Part shown: piece by piece, positions 953-16,168 of the stretch
Numbering within the stretch: the stretch's first letter is position 1
How the letters are laid out: the number at the start of each line of letters is the position of its first letter
NCBI GenBank assembly: GCA_022821145.1
Contig: JAJEEE010000064.1
Coordinates: 1-64,000 of the forward strand
From: Acidobacteriota bacterium
GTDB taxonomy: Bacteria; Acidobacteriota; Terriglobia; 20CM-2-55-15
DNA: 64,000 bases
Reading direction: 5' to 3'
Translations under genes and position numbers: made by a program
Notes under the pieces: model-generated
The model's input: the letters and a program-made list of their open reading frames with translations, nothing else
What the model was told of the DNA's origin: nothing
Database searches by the model: none

Positions 953-3373
953 TCAGTAGAAGGGCGGGAAACGCACGGGGTCGTGCTCGCGCATCATGTC
1001 ATAAACCATGGCGACCACCTGTTCCCGGTTGGGTTTCGAGAAGTAGTCTCCGTCGGAACCGTACGCGGGACGGTGCGCGGGCGAGGAAAGCGTTCGCGGC
1101 GCCGCATCGAGCCACGCGTAGCCGCCCTGCCGCTCGATGACCTGCTGCATCATGTAGGCGGTCCCGCCGCCGGGACAGTCCTCGTCCATGAACACGATGC
1201 GGTTGGTCTTTCGGAGCGATTCCAGGATCACGCCGCCGACGTCGAACGGAAGCAGCGTCCGGACGTCCACGATCTCCAGATCCACGCCGACAGTCTCCAG
1301 CAACGACGCAGCCTCCTCCGCGACGCTGCAACAGGCGCCATAGGTTACGAGCGTGACGTCCCGCCCGCTTCGAATCACTTCGGGCACCCCCAGCGGCAGC
1401 GTGTACTCCCCGATGTTCTCGGGCATGCGCTCCTTCTTCCGGTAACCGTTCAGGACCTCCACGACGAGCGCCGCGTCATCGGATTGGAAGATCGTGTTGT
1501 AGAACCCGGCCGCCTGAACCGAGTTTCGAGGCACGCAGACGTAGATGCCGTGGAGCAGGTTGATGATCCCGGCCATCGGGGAACCGGCGTGCCAGATGCC
1601 CTCGAGCCGGTGCCCGCGCGTCCGGATGACGACGGGCGCCTTCTGGCCGCCGCGCGTGCGCCACCGCAGCGTGGCCAGGTCGTCGGAAAGGATCTGCAAC
1701 GCGTACAGTATGTAGTCCAGGTACTGGATCTCGGCGATAGGCCGCAAGCCTCGAAGAGCCATGCCGATGGCCTGACCGATGATGGTGGCTTCCCGGATCC
1801 CGGTATCCGATACACGGTCGGCGCCGTATTTTTCCTGAAGATGGGCCCACCCCTGGTTGACGCCCCCAAGCAGCCCCACGTCCTCCCCGATGGCGATCAG
1901 GTTGCGAATGCGCGCGAACGCCGCGTCGAAACAGTGATTGATGATCTCGAAACCCTTGAGCTCGGCGGGCGGGTCGGCATAACGGATCGGCGCCACGGGA
2001 ACGGCCAGCGCGGACTCCTTCGACTCGCTGTAGAGATCGGAACCGTAGCGCCGGCGGTGGATGTCCTCCTGCGCCGCCCGCCACCGGCGAAGCGCCGCGG
2101 TCCGCTCCGCCGGCGCATCCCTGGCCGCGACGAGCGCCTCGGCGGCTGCCGCCATGATGTCGCGGCGAAACGGCGCGGGGTTCCGTTCGAGACGCTGCCG
2201 CAACTCGGCGATCGCCTCTCCTTCGAGCGTCTCGTCCTCGAGCGCCCGCATCAATGACGATACGGTCCGGCGTTCTTCCTCGATGGGCTCTCGACAGGCT
2301 CGCCAGGCTTCCTCCCGGGCCCGGACCACGTGCTTGCGCTCCGAGGCCTCGATTTCGTCGAGCTCGGCCTCGCCCGCGAGACCGGTTTCGAGAATCCAGT
2401 CGCGCATCTTGACCATGCAGTCGTACGTCTTCTCCCACTCCAACCGTTCCGGCAACTTGTAGCGTTCGTGATTTCCCGAGGTCGAATGCCCCTGGGGCTG
2501 CGTCAGCTCGGTCACGTGGATCATGGCGGGCGCGTGAGTCCGTCGTACGAGCTCGGCGGCCTCCAGATAGGTGGAACAGAGCTCCGGATAGTTCCAGCCC
2601 CGCGCGACGTAGATGTCCAATCCCGGGCGGCCTCCCTCGCGGTGGCGAAAACCCTCGAGGATCCTGGAAATATCGCCCTTGGCCATCTGGAACACGTTCG
2701 GAACGGAAATCCCGAAGCCGTCGTCCCAAATCGACAACAGCATCGGGGCCTGCAGCACGGCCACGGCGTTCACGGATTCCCAGAAGAGCCCCTCCGCGCA
2801 ACCGGCGTTTCCAATCGTGCCGAACGCGATCTCGTTTCCGCCGTCGGAGAACCTCTTCGCGAACTCCGTCGAGACGCCCACGCGGCGATAGAGCTTCGAC
2901 GCATAGGCCAACCCGACCAGCCGGGGCATCTGCGCGGCCGTGGGCGACAGGTCCGCGGACGAGTTGTACTGGTCGACTTGCGTCTTGAAGCCGCCCGTTT
3001 CGTCCAGAAGCCGGGTGGCGAAGTGACTCGTCATGGAGCGGCCGGACGACGACGGCTCGGCTGCCGGGTCGGCGTGCGCGTAGAGCTGGGCGAAGAACTG
3101 CTCGACCGTCAGCAGGTCGAGCGCGAACATCACGGTCTGGTCGCGGTAGTAGCCCGAACGGAAATCGCCCTTCCGGAAGGCGTAGGCCATCGCAAGCTGG
3201 GCGGCTTCCTTGCCGGCGCCGAAGATGCCGAACTTGGCCCGTCCGAGTAGGACTTCGCCCTGGGCCAGGATGCTCGCCCGGCGGCTTCGGATCCCGATGC
3301 GATAGTCCCGCAGCACCGCCTCGACATTCCAACCGGGCCGTGCGTCTTCGAGAAACGGGTTGTTCAATGACAT
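953..3373 (-). CDS. Fused alpha/beta E1 component of a 2-oxoacid dehydrogenase (thiamine diphosphate)
   Basis: This 806-residue protein joins an alpha-type (about residues 1-440) and a beta-type (about 480-800) E1 subunit of the branched-chain 2-oxoacid, pyruvate or acetoin dehydrogenase family. These subunits decarboxylate a 2-oxoacid on thiamine diphosphate. The alpha half has the cofactor-loop context GNAGCAEGLFWE followed by SIWDDGFGISVP, where common homologues read GDG and NN. The beta half ends with the expected DVRTLLPFD, DEDCPGGG and GSDGDYF segments. No E2 or E3 gene lies nearby, so the acyl acceptor and true substrate are unknown. The gene stands alone and diverges from the coiled-coil gene at 3415. 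Confidence 0.85.
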   Translation of the reverse strand: MSLNNPFLEDARPGWNVEAVLRDYRIGIRSRRASILAQGEVLLGRAKFGIFGAGKEAAQLAMAYAFRKGDFRSGYYRDQTVMFALDLLTVEQFFAQLYAHADPAAEPSSSGRSMTSHFATRLLDETGGFKTQVDQYNSSADLSPTAAQMPRLVGLAYASKLYRRVGVSTEFAKRFSDGGNEIAFGTIGNAGCAEGLFWESVNAVAVLQAPMLLSIWDDGFGISVPNVFQMAKGDISRILEGFRHREGGRPGLDIYVARGWNYPELCSTYLEAAELVRRTHAPAMIHVTELTQPQGHSTSGNHERYKLPERLEWEKTYDCMVKMRDWILETGLAGEAELDEIEASERKHVVRAREEAWRACREPIEEERRTVSSLMRALEDETLEGEAIAELRQRLERNPAPFRRDIMAAAAEALVAARDAPAERTAALRRWRAAQEDIHRRRYGSDLYSESKESALAVPVAPIRYADPPAELKGFEIINHCFDAAFARIRNLIAIGEDVGLLGGVNQGWAHLQEKYGADRVSDTGIREATIIGQAIGMALRGLRPIAEIQYLDYILYALQILSDDLATLRWRTRGGQKAPVVIRTRGHRLEGIWHAGSPMAGIINLLHGIYVCVPRNSVQAAGFYNTIFQSDDAALVVEVLNGYRKKERMPENIGEYTLPLGVPEVIRSGRDVTLVTYGACCSVAEEAASLLETVGVDLEIVDVRTLLPFDVGGVILESLRKTNRIVFMDEDCPGGGTAYMMQQVIERQGGYAWLDAAPRTLSSPAHRPAYGSDGDYFSKPNREQVVAMVYDMMREHDPVRFPPFY

Positions 3374-3414
3374 CGCGATACGCCCTCTGCCGACGTTGCC
3401 GGAGCGCCTCCATT

Positions 3415-4059
3415 ATGACCATCGGTGCTATGATCGACGCGCCCTTTCTCCGCCACGCGGAGTCACACGTGATTCAAGCGATTCGCAAGTTCCTCCAGGA
3501 CACGCTCGCGCCTCAAATCGAGGGCATCCGCGGAGATATTCGGGCGCTCGACGCCCGGATCGACGCGCTCGACGCGAAGTTCACCGCCCGGATCGACGAC
3601 CAGGACGCGAAGTTCACCGCCCGAATCGACGCGCTCGACGAGAAGTTCACCGCCCGGATCGACGCACTCGACGAGAAATTCACCACCCGAATCGACGCAC
3701 TCGACGAGAAGTTCACCACCCGAATCGACGCACTCGACGAGAAATTCACCGCCCGGATCGACGACCAGGACGCGAAGTTCACCGCCCGAGTCGGGGCCCA
3801 GGACGAAAAGTCCGAATCGAGGTTCGATGCGTTCGACGCCCGTCTGCAGGCGATGGACTTGAAAATGGATGGTTTCCGGGCGGAGACCCTCGCCGAGATC
3901 CGGCGCACCGAAGCCGTGCTGTCGGCCGATTTCGTCCGGTTGGAAGAAAAGGTCGATCTCCGCCTCGAGAACATGGACACGAGGCTCGAGGCCATGAACG
4001 ACAAGATCGACGTCCACCGGCGGGAGTTGCTGGCCGAGATTCGGGCCGCGCTTCATTGA
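3415..4059 (+). CDS. Coiled-coil protein made of 11-residue repeats
   Basis: This is a hypothetical protein of about 214 residues. After a short N-terminus (DTLAPQIEGIRGDIRALD) it carries seven near-identical 11-residue units of the type ARIDALDEKFT, then two degenerate units, then more amphipathic helix with spaced acidic, Leu and Met residues. An 11-residue period is typical of hendecad, right-handed coiled coils, so a parallel helical bundle or filament-like stalk is likely. No catalytic motif, membrane segment or signal peptide is seen. ATG at 3415 or 3430 are both possible starts, and an upstream in-frame ATG at 3340 would overlap the divergent E1 gene. Function is unknown. Confidence 0.6.
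   Translation: MTIGAMIDAPFLRHAESHVIQAIRKFLQDTLAPQIEGIRGDIRALDARIDALDAKFTARIDDQDAKFTARIDALDEKFTARIDALDEKFTTRIDALDEKFTTRIDALDEKFTARIDDQDAKFTARVGAQDEKSESRFDAFDARLQAMDLKMDGFRAETLAEIRRTEAVLSADFVRLEEKVDLRLENMDTRLEAMNDKIDVHRRELLAEIRAALH
3553..3783 (+). repeat. Seven tandem 33-bp units within the coiled-coil gene
   Basis: Seven consecutive 33-base units each encode 11 residues (ARIDALDAKFT, ARIDDQDAKFT, ARIDALDEKFT twice, TRIDALDEKFT twice, ARIDDQDAKFT). The DNA is nearly as conserved as the protein, which points to recent unit duplication. Two decayed units follow to about 3849. There are no spacers, so this is not a CRISPR array. Copy number could vary between strains. Confidence 0.9.
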
Positions 4060-8438: not shown

Positions 8439-8540
8439 GGACGGGATTATCGGCGCATTCGACGCACTCTTCAACCGGATTCGCCCGTTGCCTCGGCAAC
8501 GTCGGCGGCGTTCGTGCCGGATGGACCTGAAGAGATCATT

Positions 8541-8846
8541 TTCTTGGGCTGACGCCTCGGCTACCGCCTCGGCAATTGCGAAGGCAATTGCCGCATTGTC
8601 CAGTCGCCGCGAGGAACGCCGCGACTAGTATCGGAGAGTCCCGCACATTCGCGGCGGAACATGCGGTGTTGGGCGTGGCGTCGGTGGATCGACGGCAATG
8701 CCAAGGTGCGGCGGACACGCAACACGTTGCCGCAAGCCATGTTGGACCCGCGGCGTTCCTCGTCGCGGGTGGACAACGAGCGGAGCGAGGGAATGGTTCG
8801 CCTCGTTGACGGAGGAGTCCAGATACGAGGCGTCAGTCCAAGAAAC
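8541..8846. repeat. Imperfect inverted-repeat element related to the MITE at 15 kb
   Basis: The 520-base gap between dctP and the M6 peptidase holds two inverted copies of one module. Arm A (8541-8626) reads TCTTGGGCTGACGCCTCGG through to GAGGAACGCCGCGAC. Arm B (8743-8846) is its reverse complement with an extra insert, from CCCGCGGCGTTCCTCG to GAGGCGTCAGTCCAAGAAA. Arm B contains a 9-bp hairpin with loop TTCCT, and arm A has the matching hairpin with loop AGGAA. The 120 bases between the arms begin CTAGTATC and resemble the left half of the element at 15002-15254. It is best read as nested or partly deleted copies of a small non-coding mobile element. Confidence 0.7.
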
Positions 8847-8961
8847 AATCTCTTCCACGCCCCAACAGCTTCATAACGCCCCGCCCCCACGCCGCTTCGG
8901 GTTGCGTTCGCCTCCGCGCGCTGACTATGCTTGATGGCACACTTCGCGCGGGAGAACACTC

Positions 8962-13997: not shown

Positions 13998-14050
13998 AGG
14001 TCGAAGCGGCCAGCGGAGTTCGGATGCGGGCGGTATCGCGTATGACGACG

Positions 14051-14932
14051 TCAACCCACTGCCTTCAACAAGGCGATTAGTTCAGCGACGATCGTGGGCG
14101 CGGCCACGACGACATCGGCGCCGCACAGGTCCGGCGTCGTATCCCCTGGGACCGGGTCGAGGTGCCCGAAAGCTGCGCCGGCTTCGCGCGCGATCAATGA
14201 GGCGGCAGCCACGTCCCATGGAAACACGGTCTCGTAATACCCGTCGAGGCGGCCCTCCGCAACCATGCAGATGTCCAGTGCCGGGGAGCCCATGCGGCGC
14301 ACACCACGGCATTCTGTCAGCACGGCTTCAAGTTTCCGCAACAGTTGTCCAAGCTCCCTGCGGTCGTGTGGAAACCCTGTACCGATCAGGGCCTCTTTCA
14401 GCTCGCGCCGATTGCTCACCCGAATCCGTGAACCGTTGCGCCACGCACCGTCTCCCAGGAGGGCGCAGTACGTGTCGTTGAGAAACGGTGCGTGCACGAC
14501 ACCCGCCCTGACGATGCCCTGTTCGGCATAGGCGATCGAGACCGCCACCGCGTCGAGCCCGTGAACGAAGTTGACGGTCCCATCGATCGGATCCACGATC
14601 CACAACCGATCACATGTGAACTCGACGTCCCGGGCGTCCGCAGTCTCCTCGGACAGGATGGCGTCGGTTGGAAACAGCCTGCCGATCGCTCCGCGAATGA
14701 GGGCGTCGGCACTCTCGTCCACAGTGCTCACAAGCTCATGCCCGCTCTTGTAACGGTAGGAGACCGGCTGACTTCCACGGCCGGCGACAATCGACCGGCC
14801 CGTCGCCATGGCCGTCGCGATGGCGAAGTCCAGACGCTCGGCCACAGGCCCCTTCAACTCTGCCTGTCCGCCCGTGGCGGGCCCCGCGAACCGCCAGCGG
14901 CCGCTCGATGGCTCGGACTGCCCGTTAGTCAT
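14051..14932 (-). CDS. Inositol-phosphate phosphatase family protein
   Basis: This 293-residue cytoplasmic member of the lithium-sensitive FIG superfamily (inositol monophosphatase, CysQ, SuhB) hydrolyses a small phosphate ester with Mg2+. Metal ligands are visible: Glu95 and Glu96 in SEETAD, then WIVDPIDGTVNFVHG with Asp114 and Asp117, and a late FPWDVAAASLIAREAGA segment carrying the third Asp. The N-terminal 25 residues are extra compared with SuhB. It is convergent with the DUF5916 gene, and a MITE-like element begins about 70 bases upstream of its start. The physiological substrate (inositol phosphate, PAP or other) cannot be decided. Confidence 0.85.
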   Translation of the reverse strand: MTNGQSEPSSGRWRFAGPATGGQAELKGPVAERLDFAIATAMATGRSIVAGRGSQPVSYRYKSGHELVSTVDESADALIRGAIGRLFPTDAILSEETADARDVEFTCDRLWIVDPIDGTVNFVHGLDAVAVSIAYAEQGIVRAGVVHAPFLNDTYCALLGDGAWRNGSRIRVSNRRELKEALIGTGFPHDRRELGQLLRKLEAVLTECRGVRRMGSPALDICMVAEGRLDGYYETVFPWDVAAASLIAREAGAAFGHLDPVPGDTTPDLCGADVVVAAPTIVAELIALLKAVG

Positions 14933-15001
14933 GGAGATACTCGTTCATCCGGCCTTCGCATCGATCGTGGTCGATGAACCGCCCATGGTTTCGATGGTCC
15001 C

Positions 15002-15254
15002 CTAGTGTCATGTCCCGTGAGTTCGCGGCAACACAGCCAACCGTCGTTGGCTCTGACGATCGACGGGAGGTCGCGGCGACTCGGGTGACCGGCCGGTATG
15101 CCGAGATCTGTACGGCACAGAAGACACTGGCGTGTACTTTATTGGATCCGCGGCGTTCCTCGCCGCAGATGGACAACGAGGCTCCAGCCGAGGCGTCAGC
15201 CAAGAGAACGAATCCACTGAATCAAGCGCACGAAATCGTGCGACTGGACACTAG
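15002..15254. mobile_element. MITE-like element with CTAGTGTC/GACACTAG ends
   Basis: A roughly 250-bp non-coding block is bounded by an 8-bp perfect inverted repeat, CTAGTGTC at 15002-15009 and GACACTAG at 15247-15254. The similarity extends imperfectly inward (atGTC against caGTC). The ends sit on TA dinucleotides, as expected for IS630/Tc1-mariner-type elements that duplicate TA. The interior carries the hairpin GCGGCG-TTCCT-CGCCGC (near 15150-15166) and the same module as arm B at 8743-8846. It fills the gap between the phosphatase gene and the MBL gene. Its right end overlaps the MBL stop codon (15251-15253), so insertion may have set that C-terminus. There is no transposase. Confidence 0.65.
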
Positions 15255-16168
15255 TCCACCGCCCGTACCGGAAGGCCGGCCGGGCTGTTGGGCTCGCGGT
15301 AGCGGTAGAGGTAGTCGTACATCGAGTCGATGTTGTTGCGGAGACTGTTGTCGCTGATGTTGTACTCGCCGCGGAACTCTTCCATCGTGACCAGGCCGTG
15401 GATCTCGTCGAGCGTGCGGCCCGCGACCATGTGGGCGAGCACCTGCTCCCTTATGGACACCAGGTAGCGGCGGTACACCAGAAAGTTTTCCTGGGTCTTC
15501 AGGTTGCCGTGGCCCGGAATCACCATTTCGACGTCGGGCATGTGGCCGGCCGTCAACAGTGCGTCCAGCATGTTGTCCACGTCCATGTCCCGAAAATCCG
15601 GGAAGATGTTGGTCCCGCGGGCGAAGTCCGGCGCATAAAGGACGCCTTCCTCGGGCACGTGCACCTGGATGAGGTTGTCGCTGTGGAGCGGGCCGAGATA
15701 GAGCAGGGTGACCTTCACGCCTCCCAGTTCGATGTCGAGCGATTCCTCGAACGTTACCTGCGGGATCAACGCGCGTCGGCCTTCTCTCACCAGGTGCGGC
15801 AGCAGGTTCCTGTGGCCGATGGCGACGGCCGTGTCGGCGAAGACTTCCGTCTCGCAGATGTGACTCTGGTGGTCGTGGCTGAGGGTGACGAAACGGACGG
15901 GCACGCCGAAACGGCTCTCGATCTCGGACTTGAGCCACGGCACGTGACCGCGGCCGCAGTAGTGGCCGTCGGAAACGATGGCCCCTTCGGGCGTCACGAC
16001 CAGCATCCCGTTCTGGCCGTCCGCGCCCCATCGATACACGTGTTCCGTCAATTGGTCGATCGAACGTTCGGAACCCCACTCCTGGGCCGAGGCCGCGCCC
16101 GCAAGCGATACGACGGCCATGAGGCACAGGAGGCGGCGCGCCGGCAGTTGTCCCTTAACGCGCTTCAT
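15251..16168 (-). CDS. Secreted MBL-fold metallo-hydrolase
   Basis: This 305-residue protein has a Sec signal (LMAVVSLAGAASAQ) and a metallo-beta-lactamase fold. The first metal motif reads His98-Asp-His100-Gln-Ser102-His103, so the usual Asp of HxHxDH is Ser. Later ligands look present: GPLHSDN, a YAPDFA segment, and PGHG near residue 200. It is probably a periplasmic hydrolase of the large secreted MBL group. It overlaps the end of the ankyrin gene by 14 bases, and the two form a minus-strand operon. The Ser substitution may mean a mono-zinc or altered site. Its stop codon lies in the end of the adjacent MITE. Confidence 0.8.
   Translation of the reverse strand: MKRVKGQLPARRLLCLMAVVSLAGAASAQEWGSERSIDQLTEHVYRWGADGQNGMLVVTPEGAIVSDGHYCGRGHVPWLKSEIESRFGVPVRFVTLSHDHQSHICETEVFADTAVAIGHRNLLPHLVREGRRALIPQVTFEESLDIELGGVKVTLLYLGPLHSDNLIQVHVPEEGVLYAPDFARGTNIFPDFRDMDVDNMLDALLTAGHMPDVEMVIPGHGNLKTQENFLVYRRYLVSIREQVLAHMVAGRTLDEIHGLVTMEEFRGEYNISDNSLRNNIDSMYDYLYRYREPNSPAGLPVRAVD

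Follow-up and report, generated by a model that had tools for sequence, protein, structure and literature searches.

A CTAG-duplicating MITE at the stop codon of an MBL-fold gene in a genus of Acidobacteria

Results

A mobile element at the end of the MBL gene

In the window, the stretch of 64,000 nucleotides of Acidobacteriota DNA that was analysed, the TAG stop of an MBL-fold gene lies in the edge of a non-coding block with matching ends, which raises the questions of what this block is, how it may have reached the gene end and whether the protein was changed. The block (15002-15254) is one copy of a MITE, a short mobile element that is non-coding and ends in inverted repeats, with the following parts:

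15002..15005, no strand: distal CTAG of the target duplication (from the sequence; duplication seen at the empty sites of other copies)
15006..15250, minus strand: MITE body, 245 bp, non-coding (orientation from the family model)
15006..15016, plus strand: terminal inverted repeat TGTCATGTCCC (sequence, inverted-repeat search, alignment of 13 copies)
15141..15211, minus strand: conserved internal module with a GC-rich hairpin at 15146-15170 (common to a second repeat family)
15227..15242, no strand: subterminal hairpin CGCACGA-AA-TCGTGCG (from the sequence; present in both predicted folds)
15240..15250, minus strand: terminal inverted repeat, inward reading TGTCCAGTCGC (same evidence as the first repeat)
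15251..15254, no strand: gene-side CTAG of the target duplication, which contains the TAG stop of the MBL gene (sequence, family copies, stop-codon scoring)
15251..16168, minus strand: MBL-fold gene, 305 aa, TAG stop inside CTAG (Pfam; ortholog in the sister species)

The body ends in TGTCATGTCCC and TGTCCAGTCGC, with CTAG on either side. Matching ends had been pointed out in a preliminary description of this DNA, and both 8-bp ends are found at exactly those coordinates (CTAGTGTC at 15002-15009 and GACACTAG at 15247-15254, with a spacing of 237 between them), extending into a 24-nt inverted repeat with 75% complementarity. As 355 perfect 8-bp inverted pairs spanning 200-300 bp occur in the window, such a repeat carries little weight by itself, even if only the element's pair starts with CTAG, and the real evidence is the copy number.

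Copies were searched for in two draft assemblies, the window's own genome (G000, 4.18 Mb in 89 contigs) and that of a sister species (G001). The 253-bp query gave 66 matches in G000 at E<=0.001, most of them covering only about positions 140-210. When a family profile of 258 positions, built from 11 copies, was run over the collected loci, 13 copies spanned nearly all of it (bits >200), the matches of the seed copies being expected since the profile contains them; the window copy aligned over positions 2-257 with 211.6 bits. The copies, by contig and position, are:

Full copies in G000: C79:5925, C81:9781, C79:47743, C30:28589, C23:35556, C42:10635 and C70:15002 (the window copy)
Full copies in G001: C46:1914, C46:2327, C228:19318, C320:11378, C195:12764 and C260:7114
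Two further copies with bits >140: G001:C28 and G000:C10

Two of the full copies in G001, at C46:1914-2168 and C46:2327-2586, are separated by 158 bp.

The block thus combines a 245-bp body without a transposase gene, terminal inverted repeats that are conserved in the alignment of the 13 copies, a presence at unrelated sites (seven full copies in G000, six in G001) and a target duplication at empty sites (CTAG at C228 and C30, partly decayed at C23 and C81). It is neither single-copy in its genome nor conserved at its site in the sister species, in agreement with the non-autonomous, multicopy element proposed in the preliminary description. Among 41 genomes (its own and 40 relatives), matches to a full copy were present only in G000 and G001, and a 28-mer of the module found six stretches, all from one record set that is probably G001, in a wider contig collection that may lack records close to the window's genome. 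Within this sampling, the many copies of the MITE family belong to one genus of Acidobacteria.

The target duplication is CTAG

For 11 copies, the orthologous place in the other species was located with the concatenated flanks. A single CTAG at the empty sites corresponded to two at the filled ones (G001:C228 vs. G000:C83 and G000:C30 vs. G001:C29), the cleanest case being G001:C228, in which gcgccttgCTAGacattcgcc in G000 corresponds to gcgccttgCTAG-element-CTAGacattcgcc in G001. In G000:C23 and G000:C81, CTAG was kept on the gene or stop side and CTGG or CGAG was found on the other, as a decayed distal copy, and C46:1914 showed CTAG on the single flank that aligned. The exceptions were C195, with GTAG, and C42, with CTAC/CTTC; the comparison gave no clear empty site for C260, C28, C10 and C46:2327, the ortholog of C10 seeming to contain related remnants. 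At C228 and C30 the two CTAG copies are adjoined by different bases, and therefore the target duplication is the 4-bp CTAG and not TA. Consequently, the assignment to the IS630/Tc1 type, which relied on TA dinucleotides at the ends, fails.

The MBL protein has the same length without the element

The MBL gene was assigned by a match to Pfam Lactamase_B (22.9 bits vs. a cut-off of 22.7). Its TAG stop does lie within the CTAG at 15251-15254, as had been described, but the statement that the element supplies this stop holds by position and not by effect: the G001 ortholog also has 305 aa, is 95% identical and ends at the same last residue (...PVRAVD) with a TGA stop, and at other ortholog sites (C81, C23, C228 and C30) the stop-bearing CTAG was already present in the empty allele. 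The element would therefore hold the MBL stop without any change in protein length. As G001 lacks the whole of 14035-15254, an inositol-monophosphatase gene (14051-14932) and the MITE being missing together, its allele does not represent a clean empty site for the window copy.

The related block at 8.5-8.85 kb

A relationship with sequence at 8.5-8.85 kb had also been proposed. The likeness is real but is limited to the internal module of about 70 bp, which in the MITE is the best-conserved stretch of the 13-copy alignment (15141..15211):

8493..8890, no strand: separate element or insertion with the shared module twice, inverted (inverted pairs; BLAST pieces abut in G001; edges approximate)

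The module units lie in inverted orientation at about 8540-8626 and 8743-8845, and the block is a different element from the MITE. It is absent from the corresponding site in G001, which is contiguous across it, so that it was either inserted in G000 or lost from G001. Arrays of the module, often in alternating orientation and REP/BIME-like, were seen in G000 at C30:1-717, C31:5973-6732, C58:39496-40025 and C70:192511-193148. Elsewhere in the window, an ORF at 3340-4059 carries numerous nearly identical repeats of the DALDEKFTARI type.

REP/BIME-type interspersed palindromes are the comparison class for such arrays of hairpin modules, and the MITE resembles them in that its internal hairpin module also occurs alone and in alternating arrays. 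They differ in that each genome here holds a single Y1-type transposase gene (L113 and L114, 222 aa in both), and the module was not found near it in G000 or in G001. A RAYT/REP origin of the internal module was set aside on these grounds.

A proposed CTAG-preferring transposase acting in trans

We consider it probable, at roughly three chances in four, that the block belongs to a genus-restricted MITE family whose movement depends, in trans, on a DDE transposase that prefers CTAG, with IS481 as its most likely type. This enzyme would cut at CTAG, the 245-bp body with its TGTC...GACA ends would be inserted there, and repair would then duplicate the four bases. Because CTAG is depleted and often contains a TAG stop, surviving insertions would commonly be located at gene ends, where the duplication would leave TAG in frame and the gene would be neither lengthened nor shortened; the interrupted gene would keep its stop because the element copies CTAG at both ends. 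The window copy presumably arose by this same step, through transposition that may be past or still present.

No match over the IS481 family cut-off was obtained in G000 or G001, and the IS481-like remnants of G000 (L086 and L088) are broken. In the class, IS481-type matches at E<=1e-40 were present in 108 of 399 genomes, and 50 IS481 loci were inspected, the 30 best-scoring of this search (thus not a random draw) and 20 more. Only L193 and L200 had CTAG and matching ends on both sides, with one such end in L189-L191. The ends of L193 and L200, TGTTTAGTC(C/T)C, lie one base inside CTAG and equal the MITE end TGTCGTGTCCC at 7-8 of 11 positions, with no exact match; neither locus has a perfect 6-bp repeat, CTAG alone being common to both sides. 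The chance probability of at least five matches among the eight positions that follow TGT is 0.027 per comparison, and the resemblance is suggestive only.

A transposase element with the exact MITE ends, TGTCGTGTC, was not found among the 50 class loci or in the surroundings of the IS481- and IS630-type genes of the draft G000 and G001 assemblies. The end-pattern search in G000 gave 15 hits vs. one in the control, some of which look like coding false positives (L028 and L032-L034), and no transposase element with these ends was seen around the 15 hits when the loci were inspected by eye for partner repeats. With three mismatches allowed, the pattern gave 31 hits in G001 vs. 25 in the control, and therefore only low-mismatch and paired hits were used. 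The MITE shares the CTAG target of IS481 elements but, with 4 bp, not their published 6-bp NCTAGN duplication; from these sequence features, an IS481-type enzyme is our best guess for the transposase.

Mobilization by an IS5-type transposase seems unlikely to us. For MITEPsy1 of Pseudomonas, CTAG or YTAA is described as the sequence that precedes the insertion, and the duplication has 4 nt, so that both the length and the target word match those observed here (PMC3189936), but the ends given for it, GGAAGGTCTGAAAAAGCC, are unlike TGTCGTGTCCC, and the TGT start suits IS481 better.

CTAG is rare and often holds a stop codon

The frequency of CTAG was determined in 364 kb, composed of the window and 300 kb of chosen stretches of the same genome. 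Only 63 sites were found, whereas base composition would predict about 1,094 and a Markov estimate gives 268. A simple gene caller based on codon usage placed 22 of the 63 at predicted stops, 25 inside genes and 16 in intergenic positions, a crude classification in which some window sites counted as inside genes or intergenic may be stops; without the two CTAGs of the window element, the baseline is 21 stops in 61 sites. CTAG avoidance has also been described in Haloquadratum (PMC3119063).

Among the 15 copies with bits >140, the edge CTAG contained the TAG stop of the neighbouring gene in nine (frame codon score >50), namely C81, C46:2327, C228, C79:47743, C30, C23, C70, C28 and C10. The other six were not scored at a stop: in C260 the gene ends with TAA at the edge, in C46:1914 the frame is ambiguous, and four more make up the rest. 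Joining the flanks was a check imprecise by about one base, in which one frame, at C228, scored well on both sides. At this site, two frames of a kinase/regulator-like pair, named by eye from motifs, may overlap at AATGTCTAGC; the first frame would retain its stop and the second would lose its original start.

That the element actively recognises stop-codon contexts instead of CTAG appears very improbable. The proportion at stops is higher in the copies (9/15) than in background CTAG (21/61), but the difference has p=0.08 in Fisher's test and vanishes against non-coding CTAG (21/36, p=1.0). By contrast, none of the 15 copies was inside a gene vs. 25 of 61 background sites (p=0.0016), a zero that is a reading of the flanks and not proved copy by copy, which points to selection. 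CTAG targeting plus the loss of gene-breaking insertions explains the stop bias, with no need for a special recognition of stops.

Together, the empty sites and the 364-kb baseline provide a clear case in which a mobile element is steered by a depleted target word to gene ends, where its insertion does no harm. For annotation, they warn that such an element may carry the stop codon of a gene without having altered the protein. A tentative generalization, which we hold as possible rather than probable, is that in CTAG-poor genomes a CTAG-specific MITE makes stops its main landing sites. As the duplication repairs the stop, it could spread from one gene end to another with hardly any cost, and the distal CTAG would decay while the other is preserved by selection on the gene.

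Less probable origins

An IS630/Tc1-type MITE inserted at TA, as first proposed, has very little probability left: TA does sit within CTAG and each genome has one IS630-type gene, but the entire CTAG is duplicated at the clean empty sites, and these genes (G000:C11 and G001:C53) have no shared ends within 1.5 kb. Equally improbable is that the block is a structured RNA, conserved as such, or a 3'-end terminator instead of a mobile element. Its hairpins are strong and the predicted minus-strand fold is more stable than shuffles (z -3.89), but the window gave no match in Rfam, the covariation term is only -0.77 with compensatory change in 6 of 42 pairs, and the element is present in one sister species and absent from the other at sites with a target duplication.

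Comparison with known systems

No description of this MITE family was found in the literature searched and, as far as that literature shows, the family, its empty sites and the CTAG baseline are new. Insertion at CTAG with preservation of a stop is already known from IS481 elements: ISRe46/TnRErm46 (ends TGTTGCGGGTC...; PMC6794481) and ISLxc2 (PMC2516522) share with the MITE the CTAG target and ends starting with TGT, and some of the genes hit by TnRErm46 take their stop codon from a CTAG copy and so are left uninterrupted (PMC6794481). In contrast, these elements encode a transposase and have duplications published as 6-bp NCTAGN (PMC6794481, PMC2516522), whereas the MITE is a 245-bp non-coding element with a 4-bp CTAG. 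MITEPsy1 of Pseudomonas syringae is, like the family described here, a bacterial MITE with a 4-nt duplication of CTAG (or YTAA), but it measures 100 nt and has IS5-like GGAAGG... ends which, as given in that source, bear no resemblance to those of the present MITE (PMC3189936).
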